64,000 nucleotides of DNA from Symbiodinium natans (Eukaryota > Sar > Dinophyceae > Suessiales > Symbiodiniaceae), in contig CAJNDS010000060.1 of NCBI GenBank assembly GCA_905221605.1, positions 124,001 through 188,000 of the forward strand. The letters run 5' to 3'. A program made the position numbers and the translations under genes. A model generated the notes under the pieces. It was not told where the DNA came from. It saw nothing but the letters and a program-made list of their open reading frames with translations, and searched no databases. Position 1 is the first letter of the stretch; the number at the start of each line of letters is the position of its first letter. This document shows, piece after piece, positions 2,611 through 57,955 of this stretch.

Positions 2611-3642
2611 ATGGACTTTGTGAACATGGTTGACGACTCCCTCCTGCAGGCATGGGCGGTTGGGGGATCGTGGCAGGGCCCGCTCCCGATGCTGGGACGC
2701 GCTGCCCAGCAGGCCCTGCTGCTTGTCGTGACAGGGTCGCTTGCCCTGGGCTTTGGTGTGGGCATCTTTCGCCGAGCTGTCCTGGCCAAGCAAAGTCACA
2801 TGGACGCCAAGACTGAAACGCTGCGGGTCAGGATTAAAGTCCTTGAGGACCTCCTTGCTGACCATGCCCAAACGATGCGATCTGACCAAGCTGCGATCCA
2901 GTCGGAGATCTCCAAGACCTATCAGGAGGCCAGCAAGTCAGCAATGGCGGTGTCGCAGCAAACTACGAAACTTGCTGATATCAAGCTGGGGCAATCTGAG
3001 CACCTCCGGGACACACTGAAGTGCTTTGCCGACCAAGAAAAACGCCTGGACGACCTTGAGAAATTGCTCAAGCCCCTGCACCTCAAGATTGACAAGATCA
3101 ATGGGGATGTGGTCGGCATTGGCAAAGACTTGGGAGCCCTACGTGATGGTATGGGGGAACTTCGTGGAGAAACCACGGCCGTCCAGAACACGCTCCGGGA
3201 TCTCACCAAGGACATGCTCAACGCCAGGAAGGATGTTGCCGCTGCCCATGATGAAGTCAAACAGGTCTGGGCCTTGGCAGACAGGTTTGACAAGATCGAC
3301 TACCAGATGAAAGGCCTGGACAGTCTTGCTGCTGGCATGAACTCGCTCAATGAGCGAATCCCTCAGATGGTTGCTGACTTTCAGGCCGAAGTGGACAATG
3401 TCAGGAGGGGCATTTATGAATGCCTGGATCGCATTGGGCCTCCGCCGTCCAACCGCTCCAACCCGCAGGGGCAATCATCGCAGGTGCACCTGGAGTCCCA
3501 GGCTCCAATGACGAATGCCGTGGTGCGCCCTGCCATCAACCTCTCGACGGCCATCCCAATGCAAACAACGACGCCCTCGATCACAGTGCAGTGCCCCCCG
3601 GGTGAGCTCTTCAGGGCCCTCTTTCACCCCCCGAATCCGTGA
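2611..3642 (+). CDS. Membrane-anchored coiled-coil protein, unknown function
   Basis: This 343-residue intronless ORF starts at an ATG 67 bases after telomeric repeats. Residues about 33-53 form one hydrophobic segment (QQALLLVVTGSLALGFGVGI) followed by arginines, suggesting a single membrane anchor. Residues about 65-285 are rich in E, K, L, Q and D with heptad-like spacing and look like a long coiled coil. The tail (286-343) is rich in Pro, Thr, Ser and Asn. No enzyme motif is present and no named family was recognised. It lies on the same strand as the dioxygenase-like ORF about 980 bases downstream. Both are uninterrupted, so they could be two ORFs of one mobile or recycled unit, which is inference. 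Confidence 0.6.
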   Translation: MDFVNMVDDSLLQAWAVGGSWQGPLPMLGRAAQQALLLVVTGSLALGFGVGIFRRAVLAKQSHMDAKTETLRVRIKVLEDLLADHAQTMRSDQAAIQSEISKTYQEASKSAMAVSQQTTKLADIKLGQSEHLRDTLKCFADQEKRLDDLEKLLKPLHLKIDKINGDVVGIGKDLGALRDGMGELRGETTAVQNTLRDLTKDMLNARKDVAAAHDEVKQVWALADRFDKIDYQMKGLDSLAAGMNSLNERIPQMVADFQAEVDNVRRGIYECLDRIGPPPSNRSNPQGQSSQVHLESQAPMTNAVVRPAINLSTAIPMQTTTPSITVQCPPGELFRALFHPPNP

Positions 3643-4621
3643 TGATGGTGAGAGCGGATACGGCCTGCTGAGCTCGTAGTGCGGATGACATGTATGTGCG
3701 AATTTAGGCATGTGCATGACTGCACTATATGCATGTAGATGGCAATTTGTGCAAGTGCATAGCTACATTTTCTGCATATTTGACACAGGACGATACTACT
3801 ATTCTATGTTAGGTTCTAAGCCTACTAGCGACTTCAGGTTGGGAGCCAAAGCTTGTAAGGGTTTCGCACAATAGTTGCTGGTGACAATTGATGGTCCCTG
3901 TAGCACGTGAAGGGTTGGTTCGCATGTAATCCTGCATGATTGTGAATTCGTGGATTTGTTGCTCGCTTGTATGACATGGAGACTGTGAGCACGGTGCAGC
4001 CCCCCTCGGGAATAATCTTCTCCCGCTTCCCCTTATGATATTCTCCTCCCAGTCCTTCTTCCCTATCCGAGGGGGCTAGCTGCTCTAAGCTCTCGCGTGC
4101 GAGTCACACTGTACTTTATGCATGCTGCATTTGTAGCCTGTACTTTATGCATGCTGAATTTATAGCCTAAAAGAATTTGGAGAATTTGGAGAGAATTTGT
4201 GGAGTTGCCTGAATTCAGAATTCGGTGTATCTATGCTTGCCACATACAAGTCTGATGTGTGCCGAAGAGGGTACCTGCCTCGGAAGGCGAAGGTGTGCTG
4301 AAAAGTTTGTCACCTCGTGTCGTGGGATGCGGGGATACCCTACCACCCCCCCTTGCCTACTTAGTCCCTGAATTCCCTGAAGATAGTGGATGTATGAAGT
4401 AGTGTGAGAGGGGAGCCACAAACCTGTGCACTTTCTGGGCAAGGTAATACTGTAGCAAGGTAGGATGAGTATGTCGCATAACACACGGGGTTAGCCTGTG
4501 CCACGCTGCAGCTGCCTGCAAGTGCAAGGCCTGTGCATGCATCATGACCCCCATTCTGACACATCTCTGCTCCTAACCTCTACATCCTCCATCCTCCCTC
4601 TCCCTACAACTGAAACCCCCC
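3643..4621. other. Spacer between the coiled-coil and dioxygenase ORFs
   Basis: No exon was recognised. The spacer holds TGCATG-rich sequence around 3,710-3,780, a 29-bp tandem duplication at 4,110-4,167 and an EcoRI-like GAATTC pair near 4,211-4,222. Similar GAATTC-rich motifs recur at 6.85-7.26 kb. Confidence 0.5.
4110..4167. repeat. 29-bp tandem duplication
   Basis: Two adjacent copies (4,110-4,138 and 4,139-4,167) begin TGTACTTTATGCATGCTG and end TAGCC. They differ at only a few positions. Confidence 0.9.
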
Positions 4622-23988: not shown

Positions 23989-24960
23989 TTGGCGCCGGGC
24001 GGCGGCATGCATGACCGTAGAGGAAGTCCGGCCTGCGAGCCCGAGCGCGCGCGCAGCCCCGCCTGCACGCAAGCTGTTGCGATGGAAGTCAAAGACGGCC
24101 GTGTAGACGTCGCGTACGAATGCCCGCAGTGCAAGGCCAAGGTCGACTCAGCCGTGCGAGACGGACGCATCGACAAGCGACGGAAATGCGGACACCAGTT
24201 TAGGGTGGCCGCAGGCAAAGTCGTGGCGACCCGGTCGGCGATCACATGCTTCTCCTATGAGTGCCCACAGTGCAAGGCCAAGGTCGAGACAGCCGTGCGA
24301 GACGGACGCATCGACAATCGACAGAAATGCGGACACCAGTTTAGGGTCGCCGCAGGCAAAGTCGTCGCGACCCGGTCGGCGACCACACGCTTCTCGTATG
24401 AGTGCCCACAGTGCAAGGCCAAGGTCGAAGCAGCCGTGCGAGACGGACGCATCGACAATCGACGGAAATGCGGACACAGGTTTACGGTCGCCGCAGGAAA
24501 AGTTGTCGCGACCCAGTCGGCGACCGCACACTTCTCGTATGAGTGCCCGCAGTGCAAGGCAAGGGTCGAGTCTACCACGCGAGACGGATGCATCGACAAT
24601 CGACGGAAATGCGGACACCAGTTTAGGGTCGCCGCAGGAAAAGTCGTCGCGACCCAGTCGGCGACCGCACACTTCTGGTATGAGTGCCCACAGTGCAAGG
24701 CAAGGGTGGAGTCTACCACGCGAGACGGATGCATCGACAATCGACGGAAATGCGGACACCAGTTTAGGGTCGCCGCAGGAAAAGTCGTCGCGACCCAGTC
24801 GGCGACCGCACACTTCTGGTATGAGTGCCCACAGTGCAAGGCAAAGGTCGAGTCTACCACGCGAGACGGATGCATCGACAATCGACGGAAATGCGGACAC
24901 AAGTTTACGGTCGCCGCAGGAAAAGTCGTCGCGACCCGGTCGGCGACCGCACACTGCTGA
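23989..24960 (+). CDS. Six-copy zinc-ribbon repeat protein
   Basis: This 323-residue ORF has a basic, cysteine-containing 42-residue leader. Six tandem repeats of 47 residues (141 bp) follow at 43-89, 90-136, 137-183, 184-230, 231-277 and 278-323. Each repeat begins YECPQCKA, has R-D-G-x-I-D in the middle and then KCGH, giving a Cys-x2-Cys ... Cys-x-His set that could bind one zinc, and ends GKVVAT. Zinc ribbons commonly bind nucleic acid or protein. Function here is unknown. Copies 4 and 5 are almost identical, implying recent unequal exchange. Because 141 is divisible by three, several other frames are also open, so the correct frame is chosen on its regular Cys/His pattern and its own start codon. 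The start at 23,989 is the first ATG. Confidence 0.65.
   Translation: MAPGGGMHDRRGSPACEPERARSPACTQAVAMEVKDGRVDVAYECPQCKAKVDSAVRDGRIDKRRKCGHQFRVAAGKVVATRSAITCFSYECPQCKAKVETAVRDGRIDNRQKCGHQFRVAAGKVVATRSATTRFSYECPQCKAKVEAAVRDGRIDNRRKCGHRFTVAAGKVVATQSATAHFSYECPQCKARVESTTRDGCIDNRRKCGHQFRVAAGKVVATQSATAHFWYECPQCKARVESTTRDGCIDNRRKCGHQFRVAAGKVVATQSATAHFWYECPQCKAKVESTTRDGCIDNRRKCGHKFTVAAGKVVATRSATAHC
24115..24957. repeat. 141-bp tandem repeat array, six copies
   Basis: This is the DNA array underlying the zinc-ribbon ORF, with period 141 bp. Long open frames on the opposite strand and in a second plus frame follow from the period being a multiple of three. Confidence 0.95.
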
Positions 24961-27910
24961 TAGCCTTAGAGCTTTAGGGGCCAGAGGGGAGCCATGCGGC
25001 CATGAGGCCATGGGGGGGGTTATGGGACCATGCGGAGAGGGCGGCCAGGAGGCCATGAAAGGGGCCATGGGACCATGGAGCCATGGGGCGGGAAGGGCGG
25101 AGAGGGCGGAGAGGGCGAGCATGCACATAGGGTTTCGGGGCGTGAAGCCGTGGGAGGCATGGGACCATGGAGCCATGGAGCCATGAGCCATTGGGGGCTA
25201 GAGGGATGGAGCCATGAGGCCATGGGCGCCATGGGACGGACCATGGAGCCATAGAGCCATGGAGCGTCATGGGGCGGAGAGGGCGGGAAAGTCAGCGATA
25301 AGGTCCAGGGGCGTGAGGCACGGGAGCCATGGGGCGGGATGGGACCATGCACGAGCCATTGGGGGCCGGAAGCATGAAGCCATGAGGCCATGGGCCATGG
25401 GACCATGGAGCCCTGAAGGGAAGAGTGAGAAGGTCCACACGGGCGTGAGGCCGTGGGACCATGGAGCCACGGAGCGCCATGGAGCGGGAAGGGCGGAGGG
25501 GGCGGAAAGGGCGGAGGGGGCGGAGAGGGCGGAGAGGGCGGGCATGCACTAAAGGTCCATGTCAACGCTTTGGATGGGGCGAGTCGGTGGTAGGGAGCCA
25601 TAGGTCCATGAGCGGCATGGGCGGGGCGAGGTGTGTGGGTGGCAGGGGTAGAGCAAACGGGCGGGCGTGCACTGAGGCCCTGCTTTAAAGTGGGGCGGGG
25701 CGGGATGGGGCCATGCACGCACCATTGGGGGCCAGAGGCATGGGGCCATGAGGCCATGGGCCATGGGATCATGGAGCCCTGGAAGGAAGAGTGACAAGGT
25801 CCACGGCCGTCCGTGGGACCATGGAGCCATGGAGCGCCATGGAGCGGGAAGAGTGGAGGGGGCGGAAAGGGCGGAGAGGGCGGAAAGGCGGAGAGAGCGC
25901 AGGTGAGAGGGTCCAAAGCCGTGAAGCCAGGCGGGATGGGACCATGGGCCACAGAACCATGGAGCCATGGAGCGCCATGTAGCGGGAAGGGCGGGGGCGG
26001 AAAGGGCGGAGAGGGCGGGCATGCACTGGGACCCTTTGAAGTCAGCTGATAGGGTCCAAAGCCGTGAAGCCATGGGAGCCATGGGGCGGGATGGGACCAT
26101 GGAGCCATGGGGCCATGAGCCATTGAGGGTGAGAGGCATGGGGCCATGAGGCCATGGGGGGGTAAAGGAAGGGCAGAGGAGGGGGCGGAAAGGGCGGAGA
26201 GGGCGGGCATGCACTGCTTTAAAGTCGAGTGAAGCCATGCGAGCCATGGGGCGGGATGGGACCATGGAGCCATGGGGCCATGAGCCATTGAGGGTGAGAG
26301 GCATGGGGCCATGAGGCCATGGGGGGGGCAAGGAAGGGCAGAGGTGGCGGAGAAGGCGGATGATAAGGTCTGAAGCCGGGCGGGATGGGACCATGGGGCC
26401 ATGGGACCATGGAGCCCTGGAGCGCCATGGAGCGGGAAGGGCGGAGGGGGCGGAAAGGGCGGAAAGGGCGGAGAGGGCGGGCATGCACTGGGACCCTTTA
26501 AAGTCAGCTGACAGGGTCCAAAGCCGTGAAGCCATGGGAGCCATGGGGCGGGATGGGACCATGGAGCCATGGGGCCATGAGCCATTAGGAAGGGCAGAGG
26601 CGGCGGAGAAGGCGGATGAAAAGGTCCAGACGTGAGGCGTGGGAGAAGCCATGGAGCGCCATGGGGCGGTTGAGGGTGAGAGGCATGGGGCCATGAGGCC
26701 ATGGGGGGGCAAGGAAGGGCAGAGGCGGCAGGCGGATGATTATAAGGTCTGAAGCCGGGCGGGATGGGACCATGGGGCCATGGAGCCATGGAGCGCCATG
26801 GAGCGGGACGGAGGGGGCGGAAAGGGCGGAGGGGGCGGGGAGGGCGGAGAGGGCGGGCATGCACTAGGACCCTTTGATAGGGTCCAGAGCCGTGAAGCCA
26901 TGGGGCGGGATGGGACCATGGAGCCATGGGGCCATGAGCCATTAAGAAGGGTAGAGGGCAGAGGCGGCGGAGAAGGCGGATGAAAAGGTGCAGGGACGTG
27001 AGGCCGTGGGAGTCATGGGGCATGGGACCAATGAAGCCATGGAGCGCCATGGGGCGGGAAGGGCGGAGGGGGCGGGAACCATATGGAGCGCCATGGAGCG
27101 GGAAGGGCGGAGGGGGCGGAGCGGGAAGGGCGGAGGGGGCGGAAAGGGCGGAAAGGGCGGAGGGGGCGGGGAGGGCGGAGAGGGCGGGCATGCACTGGGA
27201 CCTTTTAAAGTCAGCTGATAGGGTCCAAAGCCGTGAAGCCATGGGAGCCATGGGGCGGGATGGGACCATGGAGCCATGACGCCAATGAGCCATTAAGGGT
27301 GAGAGGCATGGGGCCATGAGGCCATGGGGGGGTAAAGGAAGGGCAGAGGCGGCGGAGACGGAGGAAAAGGTCCAGACACATGAGGCCGTGGGAGCCATGG
27401 GGCATGGGACCAATGAAGCCAGGAGCGCCATGGGGCGGGAAGGGCGGAGGGGGCGGGAACCATATGGAGCGCCATGGAGCGGGAAGGGCGGAGGGGGCGG
27501 AGCGGGAAGGGCGGAGGGGGCGGAAAGGCGGAAAGGGTGGAGGGGCGGGGAGGGCGGAGAGGGCGGGCATGCACTGAGAGGGTCCAAGGTGAAGCTATGG
27601 GAGCCATGGGGCGGGATGGGACCATGGAGCCATGGGGCCATGAGCCATTGTGAGGGTGAGAGGCATGGGGCCATGAGGCCATGGGGCAAAGGAAGGGCAG
27701 AGGCGGCGGAGAAGGCGGATGATAAGGTCTGAAGCCCGACGGGATGGGACCATGGGGCCATGGGACCATGGAGCCATGGAGCGCCATGGAGCGGGAAGGG
27801 CGGAGGGGGCGGAAAGGGCGGAAAGGGCGGAGGGGGCGGGGAGGGCGGAGAGGGCGGGGGACCCTTTAAAGTCAGCTGATAAGCCGTGAAGCCATGGGAG
27901 CCATGGGGCG

Positions 27911-28273
27911 ATGGCTCATGGCCCCATGGTTCCATGGTCCCATCCCGCCCCATGGCTCCCATGGCTTCACGGCTTTGGACCCTATCAGCTGACTAAAGGG
28001 TCCCAGTGCATGCCCGCCCTCTCCGCCCTCCCCACCCCCTCCGCCCTTTCCGCCCTTTCCGCCCCCTCCGCCCTTCCCGCTCCGCCCCCTCCGCCCTTCC
28101 CGCTCCATGGCGCTCCATATGGTTCCCGCCCCCAGCGCCCTTCCCGCCCCATGGCGCTCCATGGCTTCATGGTCCCATGCCCCATGGCTCCCACGCCTCA
28201 CGTCTGCACCTTTTCATCCGCCTTCTCCGCCGCCTCTGCCCTTCCTAATGGCTCATGGCCCCATGGCTCCATG
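27911..28273 (-). repeat. Inverted block within the satellite
   Basis: Here the plus strand suddenly carries the reverse complement of the satellite unit (CATGCCCGCCCTCTCCGCCC and so on). It then returns to the normal orientation at ATGGGTGAGAGG. All modules of one unit are present, so this is an inversion of about 363 bases inside the array or a misjoined assembly segment. Confidence 0.85.
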
Positions 28274-29518
28274 GGTGAGAGGCATGGGGCCATGAGGCCA
28301 TGGGGGGGTAAGGAAGGGCAGAGGCGGCGGAGAAGGCGGAGGAAAAGGTCAGGGACATGAGGCCGTGGGAGCCATGGGGCATGGGACCAATGAAGCCAGG
28401 AGCGCCATGGGGCGGGAAGGGCGGAGGGGGCGGGAACCATATGGAGCGCCATGGAGCGGGAAGGGCGGAGGGGGCGGAGCGGGAAGGGCGGGGGGGCGGA
28501 AAGGGCGGAGGGGCGGGGAGGGCGGAGAGGGCGGGCATGCACTGGGACCCTTTAAAGTCAGCTGAGAGGGTCCCAAGGTGGGCAAAGGAAGGGCAGAGGC
28601 GGCGGAGAAGGCGGATGATAAGGTCTGAAGCCGGGCGGGATGGGACCATGGAGCCATGGAGCGCCATGGAGCGGGAAGGGCGGAGGGGGCGGAAAGGGCG
28701 GAAAGGGCGGAGGGGGCGGGGAGGGCGGAGAGGGCGGGCATGCACTGGGACCCGGGATAGGGTCCAAAGCCGTGAAGCCATGGGAGCCATGGGGCGGGAT
28801 GGGACCATGGAGCCATGGGGCCATGAGCCATTACGAAGGGCAGAGGCGGCGGAGAAGGCGGATGAAAAGGTCCAGACGTGAGGCGTGGGAGAAGCCATGG
28901 AGCGCCATGGGGCGGTTGAGGGTGAGAGGCATGGGGCCATGAGGCCATGGGAGGGCAAGGAAGGGCAGAGGCGGCGGAGATGGCGGATGATAAGGTCTGA
29001 AGCCGGGCGGGATGGGAGCATGGGGCCATGCATGGGACCATGAGCCATGGAGCGCCATGGAGCGGGAAGGGCGGAGGGGGCGGAAAGGGCGGAAAGGGCG
29101 GAGGGGGCGGGGAGGGCAAAGAGGGCGGGCATGCACTGGGACCCTTTAAAGAGAGGGCCCAAAGCCGTGAAGCCATGGGGGCCATGGGGCGGGATGGGAC
29201 CATGGAGCCATGGGGCCATGAGCCATTAGGAAGGGCAGAGGCGGCGGAGAAGGCGGATGAAAAGGCGCAGGGATGTGAGGCCGTGGGAGCCATGATGCAT
29301 GGGACCAATGAAGCCATGGAGCGCCATGGGGCGGGAAGGGCGGAGGGGGCGGGAACCATATGGAGCGCCATGGAGCGGGAAGGGCGGAGGGGGCGGAGCG
29401 GGAAGGGCGGAAAGGGCGGAAAGGGCGGAGGGGGCGGGGAGGGCGGAGAGGGCGGGCATGCACTGGGACCCTTTAAAGTCAGCTGATAGGGTCCAAAGCC
29501 GTGAAGCCATGGGAGCCA

Positions 29519-29851
29519 CTTGGAGGGTCGGCTGGGTTATTAACTGGTTAGGGTATTTACACTTCTTAGTAAGTCAGTTATTAACTAGGATAACCTGACT
29601 TAGTAAGTCATGTAAACCTCATAAGTGGACTTACTATCTGGTGTAACTAGAAACATGACATAGTACGCGGTTACGGTTCAATGGTTAAGTATCATAAGTA
29701 GTTACACGAGAAACTAAGTCCACTTACACGAGATACTAAGTCCACTTATGAGGTTTACATGACTTACTAAGTCGGGTTATCCTAGTTAGTAATTGACTTA
29801 CTAAGTAGTGTAAATACCCTAACCAGTTAGTAACCCAGCCGACCCTACAAG
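29519..29851. mobile_element. 333-bp MITE-like element with 128-bp terminal inverted repeats
   Basis: The element interrupts the satellite at GGGAGCCA / CATGGGGCGGG. Its ends are CTTGGAGGGTCGGCTGGG and, on the other strand, CTTGTAGGGTCGGCTGGG. The inverted repeats run about 128 bases (29,519-29,646 and 29,724-29,851) with about eight mismatches by eye. CA on both sides is consistent with a 2-bp target-site duplication in the satellite motif GAGCCATGGGG. The core repeats ACTTAGTAAGT-type and CTAAGTCCACTTA motifs. No ORF is present, so it is non-autonomous. The superfamily cannot be told from the ends. Confidence 0.85.
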
Positions 29852-31250
29852 CATGGGGCGGGATGGGACCATGGAGCCATGGGGCCATGAGCCATTAAGG
29901 GTGAGAGGCATAGGCGGCGGGAGCGTGGGACCACTGAAGCCAGGAGCGCCATGCGGCGGGGAAGGGCGGAGGGGGCGGGAACCATATGGAGCGCCATGGA
30001 GCGGGAAGGGCGGAGGGGGCGGAGCGGGAAGGGCGGAGGGGGCGGAAAGGGCGGAAAGGGCGGAGGGGCGGGAGGGCGGAGAGGGGCATGCACTGGGACC
30101 CTTTAAAGTCAGCTGAGAGGGTCCCAAGGTGAAGTTATGGGAGCCATGGGGCGGGATGGGACCATGGAGCCATGGGGCCATGAGCCATTGAGGGTGAGAG
30201 GCATGGGGCCATGAGGCCATGGGGGGGCAAAGGAAGGGCAGAGGCGGTGGAGAAGGCGGATGATAAGGTCTGAAGCCGGGCGGGATGGGACCATGGGACC
30301 ATGGAGCCATGGAGCGCCATGGAGCGGGAAGGGCGGAGGGGGCGGAAAGGGCGGAAAGGGTGGAGGGGGCGAGGGCGGGCATGCACTGGTCAGCTGATAG
30401 GGTCCAAAAAGCCGTGAAGCCATGGGAGCCATGGGGCGGGATGGGACCATGGAGCCATGGAGCCATGAGCCATTAGGTGAGGTGGGAGAAGCCATGGAGC
30501 GCCATGGGGCGGGAAGGGCGGAGGGGGCGGGAACCATATGGAGCGCCATGGAGCGGGAAGGGCGGATGGGGCGGAGCGGGAAGGGCGGAGGGGGCGGAAA
30601 GGGTGGAGGGGGCGGGGAGGGGGCGGGCAGGCACTGGGACCCTTTAAAGTCAGCTGATAGGGTCCAAAGCCGTGAAGCCATGGGAGCCATGGGGCGGGAT
30701 GCAGCCATGGGGCCATGAGCCCTTGAGGCCATGAGAAGCAGTGCGGGCGGGAAGGGCGGGAAGGGCAGAGCCAGCGGAGGGGGCGGGCATGCACTGGGGC
30801 CCTTTAAATTCAGCTGATAGGGTGGGGCCATGGGACCATGGAGCCATGGAGCCACGAGCCCTTGGAGACCACGGGGCAATGAGAAGGGCAGTGCGGGCGG
30901 GAAGGGCGGAGCAAGCGGAGGGGGCGGGCCATGCAGCCATGGGGCCATGAGCCCTTGAGGCCATGAGAAGCAGTGCGGGCGGGAAGGGCGGAGCCATGGA
31001 GCCATGGAGCCGTACGCCCTTCAGGACCATGGGGCCATGAGAAGAGCCGTACGGGCGGGAAGAGCGGAGCAAGCGGAGCAAGCGGAGGGGGCGGCAGCCC
31101 ATGGAGCAAGCGGAGGAGCCATGAGCGGGGTGGGCGGGCAGTGCGGGCCATAGGCGAGGTGGGCGGAGCGGGCGCGAAGAGCGTAGCATGGGATGGGCAG
31201 GGTGTGTGTGGGGGTGGAGGGGGGGAAGGGAAGGGGCCATGCACTAAAGC

Positions 31251-38800: not shown

Positions 38801-38945
38801 TTGGCGGCGTGTGTGGCGTCGCAGCCGGCGGTCCCAGGGGCCTGCTGTTTCCCTCCTCGCCTTCTAACCGATCAGCCGCGGGAAGGTGGTGACGTATCTG
38901 ATCGAGCCCAGCCACGTCGACATCTACAAGAGCGAGTGAGTGAAG

Positions 38946-39980
38946 ATGCCATCTACTTCGGAAGGACAGTCCTCAGGCGATCCTGGAGGATATGTCTACC
39001 GAGATAGAGATCCCCCACCTTCTTGGAACGGTTCCACTCCAGAGGTCTCTTTCAAGACCTGGCTTCGAGATCTTGAGCTGTGGGAGGCCACGACGGATAT
39101 TCCCAAGGAGAAGAGGGCGATCAAGCTGGTTCAAGCTCTCACAGGGCCAGCAAGGGAGGCGGTGTCGTCTTTGACGCTGGCCGAGCTCCAGCATGCGGAC
39201 GGCTACAAGACGGTGATGAAAGTGCTCAACGACAACTTTAAGCCGTATGTGGAGACAGCGTTGCCGAGGGCCATGGAGGGCGTGTTCTATGGCCAGGCTA
39301 GAGGTGCCAAGGAGTCCATCCCGGATTACCTGGTGCGCGCGTCGCATGCCTTGGCGGAGCTCAAAGCCGAGGGCGTGGACCTTCCGGCGAAGGCTGCCGG
39401 ATACTTGCTGTTCCGGCAGGCGAACTTGGACAAAGAGCTGGAGTCCCGTGTGGTCACGTGGTTGGCTGGCGACTACACCAAGGATGTGGTGATCGCCAAC
39501 CTAAGGCGACTTGACCGCATCAACTCGAGCAGCTCCGGGTCCAAGGCGATGCTCTGGACGGAGACTGAAGAGGGCGAAGGCCAGGAGGTGTACTACGAGA
39601 ACCACGAGCACTATGGCGAGCCCGAGTTCTACCTGGAGGCGGAAGACGAAGAAGACGAGAACTACGTGTACCTAGAAGACGGCGAGCTGGACGCGGTGTA
39701 CGAGGAAGGCGATGTCATGGAAGCCTTGGCGTCGTACCAACATGTTCGGCAGCAGCTCAAAGAACAGCAAAAGGGCCGGCAGTACTACCAGCCGAACCTT
39801 GGCAAGAAAGGGGGCAAGAAGCTCTTCAACAAGGACGGCAAGAACACCGGCAAGCAGAGCAGCAAGTCCTTCGGCAAAGGCGGCTCGGCATGGAAGGGGT
39901 CGCCTACGTCACGAAGAGTGCACATAGAGCACTCGATGCCGGGCTTGCGGAGAAGTCGGGCATTGGAGCAAGGAGTGTAG
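38946..39980 (+). CDS. gag: Copia gag-like protein
   Basis: The ATG at 38,946 is used. An open start at 38,940 would be GTG. The 344-residue product has the copia capsid-like helical region (FKTWLRDLELWEATTDIPKE, ALTGPAREAVSSL, YKTVMKVLNDNF, IPDYLVRASHALAEL). An acidic Tyr-rich linker and a basic Lys/Gly/Ser tail follow. Gag packages element RNA in virus-like particles. The expected zinc knuckle is not in this frame: it appears shifted by one base, starting at 39,937, and is in frame with the downstream pol ORF. The last 17 or so residues here are therefore probably out of frame. Confidence 0.85.
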   Translation: MPSTSEGQSSGDPGGYVYRDRDPPPSWNGSTPEVSFKTWLRDLELWEATTDIPKEKRAIKLVQALTGPAREAVSSLTLAELQHADGYKTVMKVLNDNFKPYVETALPRAMEGVFYGQARGAKESIPDYLVRASHALAELKAEGVDLPAKAAGYLLFRQANLDKELESRVVTWLAGDYTKDVVIANLRRLDRINSSSSGSKAMLWTETEEGEGQEVYYENHEHYGEPEFYLEAEDEEDENYVYLEDGELDAVYEEGDVMEALASYQHVRQQLKEQQKGRQYYQPNLGKKGGKKLFNKDGKNTGKQSSKSFGKGGSAWKGSPTSRRVHIEHSMPGLRRSRALEQGV

Positions 39981-42900
39981 GCACCGAGCGGGGCCATCGC
40001 TGACAACCTCTTCGTCATCGTCGGGCCCGGGAGCAAGCCGAGGGTCCTTCTACTGGGCCGGCCGAACGGATGGCGGGTCTGGTGGAGCAAACACCTTCTT
40101 GTCCTTCGGCCAGTTCCTCAACGACAGGCCGGGCGAGTCGATGGCGGGCGAGCTCTTCGTGGGAGTGACTACGCAGGGATGCCACGGCCTGGTGGACACT
40201 GCGGCTCAGGAAGGCCTGGTGGGTCGTCCGGCCCTTCTTCGTTTGCTGGACCTTTTGAGGCCCCTAGGCCTAAAAGGCTGCTGGACGGACAAGGCCACCC
40301 AGGCACGCGGCATTGGAGGCGCAGCAAAAACAGTCGGCGTGTGCGAAGTTCCCATCGGCCTCGGTGGAGTTCCAGGAGTGCTTGAGCTGACAGTCGTAGC
40401 CGAAGACGTGCCATTGCTGTTGCCGGTTAGTCTCTTGAGGGCCTTGGGTTCAGTCATTGACCTAAGCAAAGACAAGATCACCTTCAGCAAAGTGAATGGA
40501 GAGTGCAACATGACGACTCTTCCCTCAGGGCACGCAGCTGTGGATGTGCTTGACTTTGGTCCTGAAGGTTGGGTGATGCCTTCCGCGTGTGCAGGGCGTC
40601 GTATGGAGTCCGACTTTCGCACTGGGCAGGTTTTTGGCTCGAGACCAAAGACTACAAGATCGTCCAAGACTCTTAAGTCCGAGGCCTATGCTAGCTTCTC
40701 GTGCCCTGCAGCAGCAGCAGCAGGGGCGGCAGCGGAATCCATGGCAGCTAGTGCGGAATCCCGTCAGCCGGCCAAGGCTCGCCGTCCGAAACTGGCGGGT
40801 TTTGTTGGACAAACTCTGCTCGCTGCTGGCCTGGGGATACTGGCAAACCGTGGTGTCACCGTGGATCTCTCTTCCCGGGCCAGAGTCGCAGCAGCAGCCC
40901 AGCCCTACGGATACCACTTCGCCAGCGACCTTGACTACGAGTTCGGCTACCAGCAGGGGCCAGATCTACAAGAACTACCTGGAAGGCGAGAGGCCCGAAC
41001 AGTTGGCTTCGGTGAAAGGCGTGCCGACTCAAGAGATTGGCCGCTGTGCTCACCCAGCTCAGCAGCTCAAAGGAGGAGGCAATGGACACATGAACTGGTT
41101 CCACTGCAACCTGTGCAAGGCTCGATGGAAGCTCAGCCCGAGAACAGCCGGAGCTTTGACCGGCCGACCGGTGGAGACCGTGAACCAGTCGAAGGAGAAG
41201 ACCCTCAACCTGGCGGAGAACGCTCTGAAACAACAAGAGAAGCGAATGGCCCAGAAGCACCAGGTGGAGATGGGAAACCTGATGCAGCAGCTGGCGGACG
41301 AGCGCGCCAGGAACGACGAGCTGCAGACTACGCTGGACTTGCGCGAGGGCGAGTACCTGGAGTTCGAGAGGGCGGTGGAGAACGTGACCGCAATGGAGGC
41401 TCACCTGTCCGAGATGGACCCGACTACCGCGAACCAGGTGCAGGCAATGGTCTCCGAGTTCAAGAGAGTTCAGCGCTACGAGCAGGAGACCCGACATCGA
41501 GCGAACACGCTGCCCTTGCGAGAAACCAAGAGCGACTGGGAGCAAGCCGTGGCCACGATGAAGCAAGCGGTGGACATGGTGAACCAGTTCTACGCGCGCA
41601 TGATGACCCAAAGAACCCAAGTGGCGAAGCAACTGGCAAGAATGTGAACGTAGGCCAGAACGTCAGATCGTGGGATGGAACGCGAGTGTTGCAAAGTGCT
41701 ACGCCTAACATGGTGCGTCGTTGGATGGCCAGGCCTCTTCCCTTCCTGGACGACTTTGTGGTGGTCTCCAAGAATGGTGTCCTGCAGCGAATGGACCGGC
41801 AGGACGTGGAGGGCCTGCACAGCCTGGAAGACGAGGAGGTCTATGTGGTGGTCAAAGAGCCCGAGCTGTACTTGGAGCACCAGAGCGACGAGACCAAGAT
41901 CGACAAGGCGAAGTCTGATCAGATCCTGGACTACCTCGTGGGGGCTAGTGCCGGGGTTGACGCCATGACCATAGACCTAAAGGGCGTCAACCAGAATGCG
42001 GTGTGGAAGGACATCGAGAGCCAAGGTCCCAAAGTAATATACCTGAACAAGGTGGCGTCGGAGCAGTCGTCGCTGGCTTGTCGCATCGCGAGACATCAGT
42101 GGAGGAAGGGCCGTGGCTTTGTAATCAGTGCCTTGGGGCCGCTGTCATCAGGCTTGAAGAACCTGAAGGAGGCCACTTCAGAAGGCACCGCGTCCTACCT
42201 GCTATACCGCAAGAAGTACCAGATCACAAACTTCAAGGACGCAGTCAAGTATGCCATGGCGAAGGGCAAGCCGCCCCGAGCGGAGGGGGCAATCATGGAC
42301 TATAACCTCGAATGCTTCCCCGGAGAGGTCGCAGAGCAGGACATCTTCGACGAGCTCGACCTTCGCCCGATGGACACAGTGGACGAACGTCCTGAAGACT
42401 CGGTCGTCCCGGTGGGTGAGCCTACAAGACAAGAAAAGGAGGCAGTGATGAAGCTGCATCGAAACTTGGGACACCCCAGCTTGGCGGATCTGGCTCTGAA
42501 GGTGAGCCGAACACCAGACAGGATATGGCGTTGGGCGAAGGACAACTTCAGATGTCCTACCTGCGCTGCCAGTAGAACTCCGAAGGCGCATAGGCCGGCG
42601 ATGGTGCCCAGGTCGTACGCGCCCAACACCGTGGTCGCGATCGACCTCTTGCAGATGCCGAATTGGGATGCTTCCGGACAGAACTGGTACTTGAACATGA
42701 TTTGCCTGGGCACCTCCTTCCAGATGGTGGAAAAGCTACGAAGCAAAGAGCCCGTGAGTGTGTGGGCGGCCTTTACCAGAACGTGGGGGCGCTTCTTAGG
42801 AATGCCACAGATCCTCCTTCTGGACCAAGGGCGAGAGTTCTTGGGCGAATTTCGAGACCGATGCGCGGAACTAGGCGTGCTTCTGCACGTTATTGGGGCC

Positions 42901-43968
42901 AGGGCGCCACACCAGAACGGGCGCTGTGAAAGGCATGGCGGCCTCTTCAAGCAGATGATGGAAAAGGCGAAGTGGCAGAATCCTCCGTGCTCAGAGGATG
43001 ACCTCAGGTTGCTGACACGTGAGGTGGAAGCAGCCAAAAATCGCCTCTTCAATCGCTCCGGCTTTTCTCCAGCTCAAAGGATGCTGGGGCAGACAGCGCG
43101 GACCAATGGGGAGCTCATGTCGGACGATGCCATTGACCCCGCGCTGGTGAACCACGGTGAGGAGGTGGAAAGAGTGTTGGCAGCGCGCAGGGCTGCCCAG
43201 AAGGCGTTCGTGGAGACCAACCTGTCCGAGGCGGCTAAGCACGCTCTCCGAGCCAGGAATCGCGTGCACCGAACCTTTCAGCCGGGAGAGATCGTCTACA
43301 TTTGGCGGTCGTGGAAGGATAAAGGTGTGCTTAAGCCTAACTGGGTCGGGCCAGGCGTCGTTTTGATGCCTGAGGGAGCGAACTGCTACGTCAATGTGTT
43401 GGGCAGACTTTGGAAGGTCTGCAACGAGCACGTGCGGGAGGCCACGTCGGAGGAGGTTCGCGGAGTGGAAGCTGTGCATGAAGTGTTCCAAGACCTAAAG
43501 GAGCGCTTCAAGAAGTCGAGCAGTCGTTTAATCGAGGACCACACGGGCGACCCACTTCCACCAGGAGTTTCCCGAGGAGCCATAGTTCGCGAAGCTGGCG
43601 AAGATGAAGTGAGCGCAGAAGGCCTACATCGAGGGCTACCCCGAGTGAGGATTGACGAGCCGGAGACGCCCGTGGTGCCTATACCTATTCCGCCAGAAGA
43701 ACTTCCCGATCCAGCGCAACTGCCAGAAACTCCAGTGCCAGAAGTCCCAGCAGAGCCAGCAAGGCAAGCATCAGCGCCGGAGCCCGAGGCAGAGATAGAG
43801 GTTCCCGAACTCCCCGTTCCTGAAGCTCCCGGTCGAGAAGAACGACTACGCGCAGCTGTGGACTCCGCGGTGCAGAGCCAGAGATTGGACGGTGTTCCCC
43901 CAAGAGCGCCAAGCAGGCTAGCAGAGGCGGAGAGCAGCGCTGGGTATGAGCCGGTGCGATCTTCCTGA
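39928..43968 (+). pseudogene. pol: Zinc knuckle, protease and integrase ORF (copia pol, 5' part), frame-disturbed
   Basis: The frame is open from 39,928. It first encodes a CCHC knuckle (C-R-A-C-G-E-V-G-H-W-S-K-E-C, 39,937-39,978), then a retropepsin-like segment with LVDTAAQEGLVG and a flap-like ARGIGG. The second integrase region has H-x4-H (HRNLGH) and C-x2-C (CPTC). The catalytic triad is D, D and E with 35 residues between the last two (codons at 42,643, 42,823 and 42,928; motifs LLLDQGREF and HQNGRCERHGG). Between about 40,960 and 41,640 the true coding frame is the +1-shifted one (MNWFHCNLCKARWKL and a coiled coil), while this frame stays open by chance. The frame shifts again near 43,960. 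The protease motif reads DTAA instead of the usual DTGA/DSGA. Confidence 0.85.
40965..41647 (+). pseudogene. Shifted-frame coiled-coil/zinc-finger segment of copia pol
   Basis: This frame continues the polyprotein after the shift near 40,960: QIYKNYLEGERPEQLASVKG, then GHMNWFHCNLCKARWKL with a CxxC pair, then a long E/Q/K-rich coiled coil ending at a TGA (41,645-41,647). The parallel frame here is Arg/Gly-rich and unlike a protein domain. Returning to the pol frame near 41,640 would restore the segment that starts VRSWDGTRVLQSATPNMVRR. Confidence 0.7.
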
Positions 43969-44333
43969 GAAGGCAGCAGGAGCCGGGCAACCCATACTCG
44001 TTCTTTGGCCAGGATGAGTTCGAAGAAGGACCGATGCCAGTTCCACCTCGGCGACAAAGCGAAGTGCAGCGTGACACCTGGGAGCTAAAGCCGGCCCTGG
44101 GCGTCCTGAGAAGGCATCACGTTCGCTGGCGCAGCGCGATGTGCACACCCTGGGAGACGACGAGGCTGCCAGTCAAGCTGGAAGATCTCACAGGAGAGAG
44201 GAAGACGATGGCGAAGATGAAAGATGGAAGCGTGCAAGAAGTGGAGGACGATTGGAAGAGTTTGAAACCCCAGCGAGATCTGAAAGCCAAATGGAAAGGC
44301 TTCACCGACTTCTATGTCACCAAGAAGGCCTGA
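43960..44333 (+). pseudogene. Linker between integrase and RT, ended by in-frame TGA
   Basis: After a shift near 43,960 the frame used by RT is open: FLRRQQEPGNPYSFFGQDEF, then DLTGERKTMAKMKDGSV, then WKGFTDFYVTKKA and TGA at 44,331. The same frame continues as RNLKHVTSKEVPNFDVETTE into the RT ORF, so only this TGA interrupts it. Confidence 0.75.
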
Positions 44334-44378
44334 AGGAACCTGAAGCATGTAACGTCGAAAGAGGTCCCCAACTTTGAC

Positions 44379-46208
44379 GTGGAGACGACCGAAGCGTATA
44401 CGTTCATGGTCCTCAATGCCGAGACCTTCGTCATGAAAAAGGTGGCGACGGATGAGGTAAGCGAGGCCGACATTCCCGAAGAGGAGTGGCCAGCCTGGCG
44501 ACTACAAGACGCTGAAGAGTGGAGCAAAATAGAAAGTTCCGGCGCGATGAAGGTGCTGTCGGTGGAGGAGTCAAGAAGAGTCCTCAAGGAGCTGGAGTCG
44601 CAGGGCAAGCTGAACCGGGTGATCGGGTCAAGAATGGTCCGAAGGCTGAAGCCCGGGGAACAGATTGGCGAGACACCGTCAAAGAAGTCTCGCTTTTGCG
44701 TGCGAGGTGACATGGATCCCGATGCTCTGGACTTGGAAAGATACAGCCCGACGGTCACGACACAGAACTTGCAAGTGGTTTTGCAGCTGGCCGCAAGTAT
44801 GAAGCTGAGGGGGTCCTGCGGGGACCTGAAAGCAGCCTTCACCCAGTCGGACCCTCTCTTGAGACCCGGCGGCAAGCTCTACGTGAGGCAGCCAAAAGGG
44901 GGTCTACCGAACATGGACCCAGAACAGATCATCGAAGTGGTGGCCGGCGTTTACGGGCTCATGGATGGTCCCATACATTGGCGCCAGACGCTGAAGAGCT
45001 ACATCGTGAAGGACTTGAACTACAAGCAAAGCAGGCTAGACCCAACCATCTTCGTTAAATACTTAGAGGGCACCGTTGAAGGGATCATAGTGATAGAGAT
45101 CGACGACTTGCTGTGCTTTGGCAACCGAGATCACGAAGTTCAGCTGGCAAAACTGCGCGAGCGCTTTAAATTCGGAAAATTCAAGCAGTTGATGCAGCTC
45201 TTGGATGGCACGACATTCAACGGGCGACGCATCAGACAACTGAGCGACTACACCGTCTGCGTAGACATGGGCAAGTTCGTGTCCGAAAGAATGGCGCCAG
45301 TGAGTCTGGAAAAGGGGCGCAGAGCTCACCCCGAGGCGGACGCGACAGAGGAAGAGAAGAACAAGTTCAGAGGTGCCGTAGGATCTCTAGCGTGGGCCGC
45401 CAAGGAATGTCGTCCAGATGCCGCCGCTGGAGCCAGCATAATGGCATCCAAGTTGAGCACGCTCAAGATCAAGGACATTCTCGAGCTGAACCAGTGCATC
45501 AATAAGGTGCGCGCTTGGCCAGACCTCACCTTGCGCTACTTCCCAATAGAGTGCGAGGACCTGAGATGGGGCGTGGTCACGGATGCAAGCTTCACCAACT
45601 ACAGCGACGGCTCCACCCAGGGGGCCTTGGGAGTCATAGCATTCCACAAGGACATGTTGCAGGGGCACGAAGCTACCTGCTCGCTGGTCTGGTGGAAGAG
45701 CGGAAAGCTGAGAAGAAAAGTGAACTCAACCTTGGCCGCCGAGACTCAATCGCTCAACAAAGGTCTAGGAGATCTTCTGTGGGCGAAAGCAATCTGGAAT
45801 GACTTGATCCAGGAGAAGTTCAGCCTCGAAGTTTTCAAAGAGAACGTCAGAGCCCAGGCCGATTTGGTGCTGCAGAGTGCCAAGGCAGATCACACGCTCA
45901 AAGATTCGCTGACAGTTGTGGATGCGAAGTCGCTCTACGACAACCTCCGAAAGGAGGGTTCGCTGGCCCAAGACAAGTACACCGCGCTGGACTTGGCGAT
46001 AGCTCGTGAGAGAATGGATGGCGTAGGCGCCGAAGTTCGCTGGGTTGAGCATCAAGCCATGATTGTAGATGCCCTCACAAAGATTCAAGGCAACGCTGAG
46101 GCCCTAAAGAAGCTCTTAGAAAAAGGGACATACCAGTTAGTTGCCGAAACCGAAAGGCTTGAAGAGCGGGCTGAGCGCCGAGATGCCGGGACCGTGAAAC
46201 ATCGGTGA
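44379..46208 (+). CDS. pol: Copia reverse transcriptase and RNase H
   Basis: This 609-residue ORF is the 3' part of pol. The RT domain starts with an I-G-S-R-M-V-R-R-L block and SRFCVRGDMDPD. Catalytic residues are D149 in CGDLKAAFTQ and the DD pair D242-D243 in IEIDDLLCFG, a variant of the YVDD box. RNase H (about 395-555) shows the acidic residues D402 (TDASFTN), E455 (LAAETQSL) and D515 (VVDAKSL). RT copies element RNA into DNA and RNase H removes the template. The ATG at 44,379 is only the first in frame after the TGA at 44,331, so expression as a free protein is unlikely. The frame itself is intact to the stop. Confidence 0.93.
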   Translation: METTEAYTFMVLNAETFVMKKVATDEVSEADIPEEEWPAWRLQDAEEWSKIESSGAMKVLSVEESRRVLKELESQGKLNRVIGSRMVRRLKPGEQIGETPSKKSRFCVRGDMDPDALDLERYSPTVTTQNLQVVLQLAASMKLRGSCGDLKAAFTQSDPLLRPGGKLYVRQPKGGLPNMDPEQIIEVVAGVYGLMDGPIHWRQTLKSYIVKDLNYKQSRLDPTIFVKYLEGTVEGIIVIEIDDLLCFGNRDHEVQLAKLRERFKFGKFKQLMQLLDGTTFNGRRIRQLSDYTVCVDMGKFVSERMAPVSLEKGRRAHPEADATEEEKNKFRGAVGSLAWAAKECRPDAAAGASIMASKLSTLKIKDILELNQCINKVRAWPDLTLRYFPIECEDLRWGVVTDASFTNYSDGSTQGALGVIAFHKDMLQGHEATCSLVWWKSGKLRRKVNSTLAAETQSLNKGLGDLLWAKAIWNDLIQEKFSLEVFKENVRAQADLVLQSAKADHTLKDSLTVVDAKSLYDNLRKEGSLAQDKYTALDLAIARERMDGVGAEVRWVEHQAMIVDALTKIQGNAEALKKLLEKGTYQLVAETERLEERAERRDAGTVKHR

Positions 46209-54678: not shown

Positions 54679-54739
54679 CACCTTGAGAAGTTAGGGCGAG
54701 CGAGCTTGCAAGTAGCTCCTATTCGCGCGGAGCCAACAC
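54679..54739 (+). repeat. Left copy of a diverged direct repeat flanking the transporter-SET gene
   Basis: CACCTTGAGAA followed by GCAAGTAGCTCCTATTCGCG resembles 57,876-57,955, which reads CACCTTGAGAA and then GCAAGCAGCTCCTCTTCGCG with extra bases between the two blocks. Confidence 0.6.
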
Positions 54740-54827
54740 GTCGTAATATAGTACGAGTACTCTTACGACGGCTACTCCTAGTGGGCCCGGTAGTGGTACT
54801 GGTTGCAGACGATTTCGTCTTCGCAAG

Positions 54828-54837
54828 TAGTAGTCGC

Positions 54838-54926
<89 letters not shown>

Positions 54927-54990
54927 CAGTAGCAGTAGTAGTAGTAGCAGTAGTAGCAGCAGCAGTAGCAGCAGTAGCAGCAGTAGCAAG
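54828..54990. repeat. (AGT)n trinucleotide microsatellite
   Basis: About 45 AGT/AGC units are nearly uninterrupted. Every frame on both strands stays open through it, giving Val, Ser, Leu and Thr homopolymers. The Val frame is continuous with the transporter-SET ORF. Confidence 0.95.
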
Positions 54991-55042
54991 AGTGGCAGTA
55001 GCAGTAGGAGGAGGAGTAGATGATGTCTTAGTTGTGGTCGTC

Positions 55043-57649
55043 ATGGGGCCGCGCAAGCCCTTTTTCGATGAACTGCTTGCCATTCAGGGCTCGGCTCCCT
55101 TACATGTCTCCTCCGCAATGAAGCTTCACGCGCGCGCCGAACGTCTTGACCATCAAGACCCGACCGCAGATGGCAAGACGGCGATGGCTGTCACCACGGC
55201 AATGGTGATCGGCTCTGTTCTGTTGGCTTTTGAGCTCCTTGTATTGATGCGCGTCGTGACGATAAAGGGTGTCTCGAGCTCTTGGGCGTTCCAGCTCTTG
55301 GGCGCAGGTGTTTCATTGGTGGCAGCAGTGCAGTACTCGTTTATCATCCCAATGTCCTATGACCTCAGCCGCTATGCCGGCGGGGGCGCTGCCGCATCGG
55401 GGTTTTTTATCGGCTCGAACGGCATTGGCCTGTTTGCCGGCATTTGCGCTTCGAGGCTTGCTTGGCACACGATGTCTCCCAGCCAGATCCACACTGCCAT
55501 AGTCCTCCCTGTGGTGGCCAACGCGGGCCTGGGTGTGGCCCTGGCGGGCTTGCTCGCCTCTGGCACCCCAACGCAGCATGAGCTGCTAGGGATGCGAGTC
55601 GCAATGGGGTTGTTCGAGGGTGTGGGCCAGCTGATCCATTATCTCGTGCGCCAAATGACCCCGCCACGTGAGCAGGTACGCGCCGCGGTCATGGAGTACT
55701 CCGCCTACGCCTTGGGCATGGGTCTTGGCCCCCTATTGAGCAGCATGCTTGGAGATGGGCCGGGCTTGGGGAGCAACACGCCCTTCCAGCCCAGTGCAGC
55801 AGCTGCAGTGTCAGTTGCAGTCGCATTCCTTTGTCTTTGCATGGCTGCAATCCTGGTGCTGGCAGTCCCATCTTCGCCGAAGGGCTTCGAACAGGAGCAG
55901 GTTTCAGCGGACGGAGAGCAGGAGTTAGCCGGACCCAGCCTTTCCAACCGTCCTGCAATCGTGTTTCTGTGCTTGATGCTGGAATTTCTTAGTTTGGGAG
56001 TGGCAGCCTCGGTTGAAGTGACCACCGCTCTGCTCCTCGAGGTAGACGGCGGGTGGCAGTACCGCACAATTGGCACGGGCATTGGGGCTGTGCTTGCCGC
56101 GACTGCCGTGGCCGGGGCTGGCCTCATGGCTGTTCAAGAGAGCGGCCTTGTGGATGAGGCTCTGGCTATGTGGGTCATGCTGATTGTGGCTGCAGCTGGG
56201 GCAATGCTGCTCCTCAGGAGCCATGGAATGTCGGCGGCCCTAGCAGCAGACTTCCTGATGTATCCCACCCTCGTCTGCGTCGCGAGTATCGGGGAAGGCA
56301 CCGCCATGCAGGCGAGCAGCTCACGGTCAGTCTTCTCACAGCCAAACATCATCGTGATGTGCGCCTTTGCAGACGCAGCAGCGAGGGCCTTCTTCACACC
56401 ATTGGGGCGGTACGTTTTCGACGAAGGCGGCAGAACTGGCTACGCATGGATGTTGCTCATGATCGTGGCCATCATTGCAGTGGCTGATGTCCTTGTCAGG
56501 CTTTTGCGACGCACTGCATGGCCTGCAACCGACGGATACGACAAGCTGAGCATGAAGTTGGGGGGCGGGCCGGAGAACGGCCCTGACTTCATCAAGGTGC
56601 TTGATGTCCCTCTCATTGAGAAAGTGGAGGTTAGAGACTCGGAACGTGGCAAGGGCTTGTTTGCCAAAAGTGCTATCCGCCACGGCGAGCTTATCTACCG
56701 GGCGAAGTTCCACTTTCTGCCCGACCTTCCTGGGAAGGTGCTGCTGCGCTATGGCAGCGAAGAGTATGTGCTCGATGTTTTCACGCATGCCCCTCTTCAT
56801 GGTGCAAACATTCGCGAATTGAACGAGCTCGACAGCTTCACGAACCACAGCTGTGAACCAAACATATTTTACGAGAACACGCGCTTTTTGACTGAGTCAA
56901 GCGGGGATTACGAGGTTTACGCACTGAAGAACATTTGCCCCGGCGCCGAGCTCACTGCCGACTATGACCTGTTTGCCTTTGAGACTACTCCAGAGGACCT
57001 CTTGCCGTGCAGGTGCAATTCATCCACATGCCGAGGTTCCGTCCGTGGATCGAAATACTGGCCCCTGGAGCTGCTTCTACGGCGCCTCGCGGAGGTAGAG
57101 CCCATCCCGAGAGCTTGCCTCTTGCAGCAGCACCTTGAAGTGAAGTTCCTCGACTTTGGCCGCAGCGTTGGTGTGGTTGCAGGGCCATCAGGGCCATCAA
57201 GGCCATCAAGGCCATCAGAAAAGCGTGGCTGGACCATCACGGCCGCATGCGACTTTGAGCCCGGGGTTGTGATGTTTGAAGGGCCCAGCTGCATTGTGGA
57301 CTGTATGATATGCCACGTGGTTGTGAACTTGCCGGTGCAGCTGGGCCCTGAGTGCTGGCTTCCACGAACGCTGGTCTTTAGCGGCGAAGATCTGGTGCGT
57401 GCTTCGATTCCAGTCAGACCAGTCAACGGAGACATCGGGGTGGGTGGCCACTGTGGCCACCGAGGAGAGCGTCAGTTTTTCGGGTTCGAGTTTGCTGCAC
57501 ACGGCCACCACGCCGACGCGGAGATTCGGATGCTCGCGCATGGAGAGGGCAACCGTGCACCAGAAATCTTCCAGGTCCGCTCAAAGACCCGCATCAAGGC
57601 AGGGCAGGCGTTCAGCTGCGTGGCACCATCATTGAGTCATGCGCAATGA
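55043..57649 (+). CDS. MFS-like transporter fused to SET methyltransferase domain
   Basis: From the ATG at 55,043 one uninterrupted frame encodes 868 residues. An in-frame ATG at 54,803 would add a poly-Val leader from the AGT microsatellite, so 55,043 is preferred. Residues about 48-490 hold roughly 12 hydrophobic segments (for example 48-70, 83-105, 115-138, 151-173, 253-275, 343-365, 467-487) with small-residue-rich helices, like a major-facilitator transporter. Residues about 528-670 form a SET domain: VEVRDSERGKGLFAKSAI, FTNHSCEPNIFY (N601 to N607), GAELTADYDLF (Y641) and post-SET cysteines C656, C658 and C663. SET enzymes transfer methyl from S-adenosylmethionine to protein lysine. Substrates of both halves are unknown. 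Residues 713-725 are a Gly/Pro/Ser/Arg hinge made by a 9-bp DNA repeat, followed by a possible decayed second SET domain. The region is GC-rich at third positions and intronless. Confidence 0.82.
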   Translation: MGPRKPFFDELLAIQGSAPLHVSSAMKLHARAERLDHQDPTADGKTAMAVTTAMVIGSVLLAFELLVLMRVVTIKGVSSSWAFQLLGAGVSLVAAVQYSFIIPMSYDLSRYAGGGAAASGFFIGSNGIGLFAGICASRLAWHTMSPSQIHTAIVLPVVANAGLGVALAGLLASGTPTQHELLGMRVAMGLFEGVGQLIHYLVRQMTPPREQVRAAVMEYSAYALGMGLGPLLSSMLGDGPGLGSNTPFQPSAAAAVSVAVAFLCLCMAAILVLAVPSSPKGFEQEQVSADGEQELAGPSLSNRPAIVFLCLMLEFLSLGVAASVEVTTALLLEVDGGWQYRTIGTGIGAVLAATAVAGAGLMAVQESGLVDEALAMWVMLIVAAAGAMLLLRSHGMSAALAADFLMYPTLVCVASIGEGTAMQASSSRSVFSQPNIIVMCAFADAAARAFFTPLGRYVFDEGGRTGYAWMLLMIVAIIAVADVLVRLLRRTAWPATDGYDKLSMKLGGGPENGPDFIKVLDVPLIEKVEVRDSERGKGLFAKSAIRHGELIYRAKFHFLPDLPGKVLLRYGSEEYVLDVFTHAPLHGANIRELNELDSFTNHSCEPNIFYENTRFLTESSGDYEVYALKNICPGAELTADYDLFAFETTPEDLLPCRCNSSTCRGSVRGSKYWPLELLLRRLAEVEPIPRACLLQQHLEVKFLDFGRSVGVVAGPSGPSRPSRPSEKRGWTITAACDFEPGVVMFEGPSCIVDCMICHVVVNLPVQLGPECWLPRTLVFSGEDLVRASIPVRPVNGDIGVGGHCGHRGERQFFGFEFAAHGHHADAEIRMLAHGEGNRAPEIFQVRSKTRIKAGQAFSCVAPSLSHAQ

Positions 57650-57875: not shown

Positions 57876-57955
57876 CACCTTGAGAATTTCGCCCCACTCC
57901 ACCTAGCAGGACGAGAGAGTTCGCAAGCAGCTCCTCTTCGCGCGGCAGCCGACAC
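57876..57955 (+). repeat. Right copy of the flanking direct repeat
   Basis: It shares CACCTTGAGAA and an AGCTCCT/TTCGCGCGG block ending ACAC with 54,679-54,739, in the same orientation, on the far side of the transporter-SET gene. Confidence 0.6.

Follow-up and report, generated by a model that had tools for sequence, protein, structure and literature searches.

A SET domain joined to a probable MFS-type transporter in one reading frame of the dinoflagellate Symbiodinium natans

A fused reading frame present at two loci

We analysed a 64,000-nucleotide stretch of the genome of the dinoflagellate Symbiodinium natans (the window; assembly GCA_905221605.1, contig CAJNDS010000060.1, positions 124,001 to 188,000 of the forward strand), in which an original prediction, made from the letters alone, had placed a transporter-like half and a SET methyltransferase in one uninterrupted open reading frame (ORF). 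The frame is there, 868 open codons encoding the protein P0001 (Table 1), and the claimed signatures of the SET core (NHSCEPN and ADYD) and the post-SET cysteines (CRCNSSTC) were all found in it. Beyond the post-SET lie some 180 further residues, shared with a second copy of the gene, which the original prediction had not described. From stop to stop the frame spans 951 codons, beginning at position 54794, with a 5′ extension that is mostly AGT/AGC repeat. The protein probably starts at Met26, giving 843 residues, because in the second copy the same methionine is preceded, at a short distance, by an in-frame stop.

This second copy, a paralog, came from a search of P0001 against the organism's own genome (759,417,921 bases in 2543 contigs), which matched, besides the window, a series of exons in C1856:117923-123055 on the minus strand (48-93% identity). 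Modelled with GT/GC/GA...AG splice sites, the paralog comprises 12 exons and 11 introns and yields an 818-residue frame running from the MKLHAR start through the same C-terminus, with the architecture of the window fusion and 79% amino-acid identity to it. Since its exon 4 (3366-3988 of the reverse complement of L009) corresponds to residues 362-569 and runs from the last membrane segments across the linker into the first part of the SET domain, the transporter-SET junction contains no intron; neither an intron nor a stop separates the halves at this locus, as the original prediction of a fusion implied. Searching the genome with the SET half (E≤0.01) gave no third locus among the matches listed (at least eight, at two loci).

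Over 817 aligned codons the two copies show a synonymous divergence (dS) of 0.618 and a nonsynonymous divergence (dN) of 0.124, a dN/dS of 0.200 (bootstrap interval 0.159-0.246). Had one copy evolved neutrally since the two separated, a ratio near 0.5 or more would be expected. The membrane part (0.189; 0.141-0.246), the SET and post-SET (0.142; 0.078-0.229) and the C-terminal part (0.236; 0.149-0.343) are each constrained. We simulated neutral decay at 0.1, 0.2 and 0.31 substitutions per site, with 300 runs per rate, and the window frame remained open in none of them. Given this result and the same order of parts in the paralog, the fused frame is not due to chance: the fusion is real, and the original observation is confirmed. 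The low dN/dS over large parts, together with the simulations, further suggests that both copies are constrained as whole fusions, and each seems functional from end to end.

All 11 introns modelled in the paralog are absent from the window copy, as in an intronless dinoflagellate retrogene. Retroposition is nevertheless not proven, because no spliced-leader relict lies near the start of that copy (the 64-kb window contains four matches when up to 3 mismatches are allowed, versus 2.99 expected, and none is near the gene). Direct repeats span the ends of the paralog's introns, with a mean of 4.9 nt; shuffled pairings gave 2.55, and none of 2000 reached the observed value. The introns also share sequence with one another (introns 2 and 4, 1 and 5, 3 and 5) and in 6 of 11 cases contain TTTAGGG-type repeats; intron 2 carries complementary stretches at its start and end (GTAGCCCA/TGGGCTAC, found by eye). 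Such introns resemble introner elements, which in the cited parts of two reports carry direct repeats of 3-5 nt as well as inverted repeats in Amoebophrya (Farhat et al. 2021, PMC7789003), and 3-9 bp target duplications with, in some families, terminal inverted repeats (PMC9860276, presumably Gozashti et al. 2022). The window copy may have lost introns, or the paralog may have gained introner-like ones. The 10 kb containing the paralog (L009, C1856:115001-125000) also hold 34 short TTTAGGG/CCCTAAA arrays.

Table 1. Features of the fusion gene (positions in the window; aa, amino-acid residues of P0001; TM, transmembrane segments)
Feature	Position	Strand	Basis
Fusion ORF, 868 aa (P0001)	55043..57649	+	translation; stop TGA at 57647-57649
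Likely start codon, Met26 of P0001 (MKLHAR), giving 843 aa	55118..55120	+	inferred from paralog
AGT/AGC repeat just upstream, in frame, thought non-coding	54826..55019	+	sequence
Extra N-terminal membrane segment, aa 54-72	55202..55258	+	hydropathy; counting it as extra is our inference
Probable 12-TM (6+6) MFS-like core, aa 85-488	55295..56506	+	hydropathy of both copies; own-genome relatives, one passing MFS_1
Central loop of the MFS-like core, about aa 274-305	55862-55957	+	hydropathy
Linker, aa 489-535, cysteine-free, no pre-SET/AWS	56507..56647	+	reading, Pfam; within one paralog exon
SET domain PF00856, aa 536-641, including ELTADY with the conserved Tyr	56648..56965	+	Pfam
NHSCEPN motif, aa 601-607, inside the SET domain	56843-56863	+	reading
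Post-SET CxCx4C (CRCNSSTC), aa 656-663	57008..57031	+	reading
C-terminal region, aa 681-868, present in both copies, without a family match	57083..57646	+	dN/dS, Pfam, hhalign

Membrane half, SET domain and C-terminal region

A 19-residue hydropathy scan scored 11 segments in the window copy's membrane half, against 13 in the paralog's, so that the "about 12" of the original prediction was a fair count. We infer one extra N-terminal segment and then 12 arranged as 6+6 around a charged central loop. SET-less relatives of this half are present on seven other contigs of the same genome (23-31% identity), and one of the three scanned whole, the stand-alone L013, passes the Pfam model MFS_1 of the major facilitator superfamily (MFS) with 34.8 bits (cut-off 33.4), for which reason we consider that the membrane half probably belongs to the MFS. 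No MFS match was found for the relatives L010 and L012 in whole-sequence scans or for L006 in an earlier scan, and the NCBIfam model tet_MFS_J gave P0001 14.1 bits, far under its cut-off.

The SET domain is recognized by Pfam at 44.5 bits (cut-off 22.4; E 2.3e-11), its NHSCxPN and ELTxDY motifs are present in both copies, and the predicted structure has the SET fold. A phmmer search of the PDB aligned residues 531-670, post-SET included, with ASH1L (E 8.6e-8), and SETs of the ASH1L and KMT2 (MLL) type are its best PDB matches by both sequence and structure. They share with it the SET core, NHSCxPN, ELTxDY and the CxCx4C of the post-SET. In contrast to them, the window SET is joined to a polytopic membrane protein and has neither chromatin-reader domains nor the cysteine-rich AWS or pre-SET that, placed before the SET, marks histone methyltransferases of the SET2/ASH1L or SUV39 type: the linker contains no cysteine on reading and has no Pfam match.

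The C-terminal region likewise had no Pfam match (57140-57646). A second SET domain at residues 681-868, suggested by the letters (GWTITAACDFEPG..., EIFQVRSKTRIKAGQAF), was rejected: hhalign gave probabilities of 1.2% and 0.1%, a bacterial SET profile matched only a 30-residue stretch of the paralog at -0.5 bits, and an AlphaFold model built without an alignment was uninformative (mean predicted local distance difference test score, pLDDT, 34).

Bacterial SET proteins with membrane partners

The window SET resembles the stand-alone SET domain-containing protein-lysine N-methyltransferases of bacteria, with which it shares a compact SET plus post-SET; identity was 24-43% to 80 bacterial SET loci and 27.8-31.7% to six plasmid-borne bacterial SET proteins. 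Unlike the window protein, the stand-alone enzymes are mostly of 140-300 residues and soluble. Nine of the 80 loci, all Sphingomonas by title (L059, L080, L082, L084, L085, L094, L097, L102 and L103), have 4-5 hydrophobic segments ahead of the SET in the same frame. These proteins thus have, like the window protein, a membrane part before the SET in one frame, whereas their membrane part is smaller and of no clear Pfam family, and they are bacterial and form a clade of their own. In L041 a short hydrophobic part stands at the N-terminus.

Bacterial SET genes also occur next to genes for membrane proteins. In 4 of the 80 loci a same-strand frame with several transmembrane segments begins -120 to 150 bases from the end of the SET frame; L087 falls outside this range because its downstream frame stays open further up. 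All eight L087 SET orthologs at 56% identity or more, L087 included, are followed by a frame of 485-562 codons with 8-10 hydrophobic segments, whereas the ninth match (37% identity) has no such downstream frame; the eight are alphaproteobacterial (L087, L078, L037, L117 and L135-L138), from a narrow sample in which 18 of 385 genomes had any match at E≤1e-8. L051 has the same multi-segment neighbour in a broken frame. Of three downstream neighbours scanned, two matched MFS_1 below the cut-off (32.1 and 21.9 bits) and the third had no match. Like the window fusion, the alphaproteobacterial pair couples a SET to an MFS-like protein with several transmembrane segments, but as two genes, with the SET first. 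The coupling of SETs to membrane proteins thus appears to recur, in raw counts taken without a genome-wide background, and we claim no common lineage for these cases.

Two closer kinships were considered and dropped. An origin of the membrane half in the protein encoded beside the bacterial SET is not supported (hhalign probability 0.7%), the two showing no specific kinship. As for the SET, a quick tree of 120 rows grouped it with the bacterial SET+MFS pair (Shimodaira-Hasegawa-like approximate likelihood-ratio support, SH-aLRT, 89), with a long branch adjacent; a more careful one of 78 rows, from which long branches had been taken out, placed it within a larger clade at no finer position and does not show it to belong with the Sphingomonas fusions or with the paired SETs. 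In approximately unbiased (AU) tests both the grouping with the bacterial pair (p 0.32) and one on the ASH1L side (p 0.41) escaped rejection. Searches of P0001 against phages, and of the membrane half against plasmids and IMG/VR, had no match, and IMG/VR searched with the SET alignment returned 99 pattern stretches and no relative. In Umezawaea (L030 1048-1965) one frame unites a GNAT acetyltransferase domain with a SET domain.

Possible functions of the fusion

The explanation that we tentatively prefer is a membrane-tethered SET-domain methyltransferase, most likely lysine-directed, on a probable MFS-type transporter. The transporter, of 12 segments plus the extra N-terminal one, would carry at its C-terminal side a SET domain with intact catalytic motifs. 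C-termini of MFS proteins face the cytosol, so that, provided the MFS fold holds, the SET domain would face it too. It would most likely methylate lysines of proteins at or near the same membrane, perhaps those of its own transporter half, with the membrane half serving as an anchor or as a sensor.

Several observations weigh against this explanation. P0001 itself has no MFS match in Pfam at E≤1, and a profile of nine membrane-half sequences (P0001 and relatives) retrieves nothing from the PDB at E≤0.1; support for the MFS-type transporter of the original prediction is thus indirect, through the relative L013 and not through the protein itself. A hydrophobic stretch at residues 750-768 (score 1.65) could change the topology. 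The dN/dS of the linker (0.309 over 39 codons; 0.090-0.790) has an interval too wide to place it. Only 6 of the 11 exon joints of the paralog are top-scoring; the other 5 were hand-picked to keep the frame, so that openness at these joints is partly by construction. Finally, at the column of His72 of the methionine methyltransferase BurB the window copy has Tyr and the paralog His.

The last point bears on the main rival explanation, which is that, as with BurB, the SET domain methylates a small molecule, namely a metabolite imported or exported by the membrane half. BurB is a SET enzyme that methylates free methionine, which it holds by main-chain contacts (both from the cited part of PMC12542666). 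Like the window SET, BurB (PDB 9l4t/9l4v) has the SET fold, a post-SET and the conserved Tyr124 and His93; unlike the window protein, it is soluble. At seven positions common to BurB and its Eleftheria ortholog P0003 (249 bits to PDB 9l4t), namely R70, H72, T73, L92, V/I130, M132 and R133, the window copy shares none of the residues and the paralog only H72, in an alignment that is loose near R70. In addition, the window SET keeps the usual Asn of NHSC where BurB has Leu, and ASH1L and MLL1 score above BurB in the structural comparison. The small-molecule explanation thus appears unlikely to us. Since the contacts of BurB with methionine are main-chain (in the part of the report cited), side chains cannot settle methionine use, and the comparison lowers the likelihood that the window SET belongs with BurB rather than that of a similar chemistry. 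The originally proposed coupling to transport of methionine or an S-adenosylmethionine relative is unsupported, though still conceivable: most of the residues specific to BurB are missing, and the sequence points to no particular substrate. The gene for P0003 (L020 199-720, NZ_CP106953.1, Eleftheria terrae) lies beside a type I polyketide synthase gene.

It is also conceivable, if doubtful, that the membrane half has lost transport and is a mere anchor, the fusion serving to localise the methyltransferase. The divergence of P0001 beyond the reach of MFS_1 and the existence of Sphingomonas membrane SETs with other, smaller transmembrane parts are consistent with this, whereas the membrane half is constrained like the rest of the protein and keeps the predicted 6+6 pattern and the conserved loops of its SET-less relatives. 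An annotation or assembly artefact (two adjacent genes mistaken for a single one, or a defunct retrocopy left open by chance), which the intronless window copy might suggest, is close to refuted by the separate locus joining the same parts inside one exon, the neutral simulations and the dN/dS of 0.20.

Beyond the membrane-tethered methyltransferase that we prefer, a broader and quite speculative reading is that small SETs became linked to membrane transporters on several occasions, through fusion in this genome and also in Sphingomonas, through pairing of genes in Azospirillales-type bacteria, and make up a little-noticed class that couples methylation to solute movement, the SET either covalently tuning the transporter or methylating the carried solute. 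No description of a transporter-SET fusion was found in the literature searched, mostly at the level of titles and abstracts; if methylation does tune transport or modify cargo, this would be a kind of transporter control not found described there. With bacterial examples of both gene pairing and fusion, the coupling idea becomes testable in ordinary laboratory bacteria. SET enzymes have been studied mainly as histone methyltransferases. With most dinoflagellate DNA packaged without ordinary nucleosomes (as stated in the cited part of PMC4751559), the role of dinoflagellate SET proteins is an open question, and a conserved transporter-SET fusion offers a concrete non-chromatin site, a membrane, at which to look for it.

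Elsewhere in the window, a 38-nt direct repeat (84%) lies on either side of the fusion gene (54693-54730 and 57908-57945). Three long frames at 38940-46208 resemble a retroelement, and by eye we take them to be gag-like, integrase-like and reverse-transcriptase-like. The stretch 24001-31020 is GC-skewed and highly repetitive, with long minus-strand frames of a low-complexity protein of the HGPMAPWSHP type.
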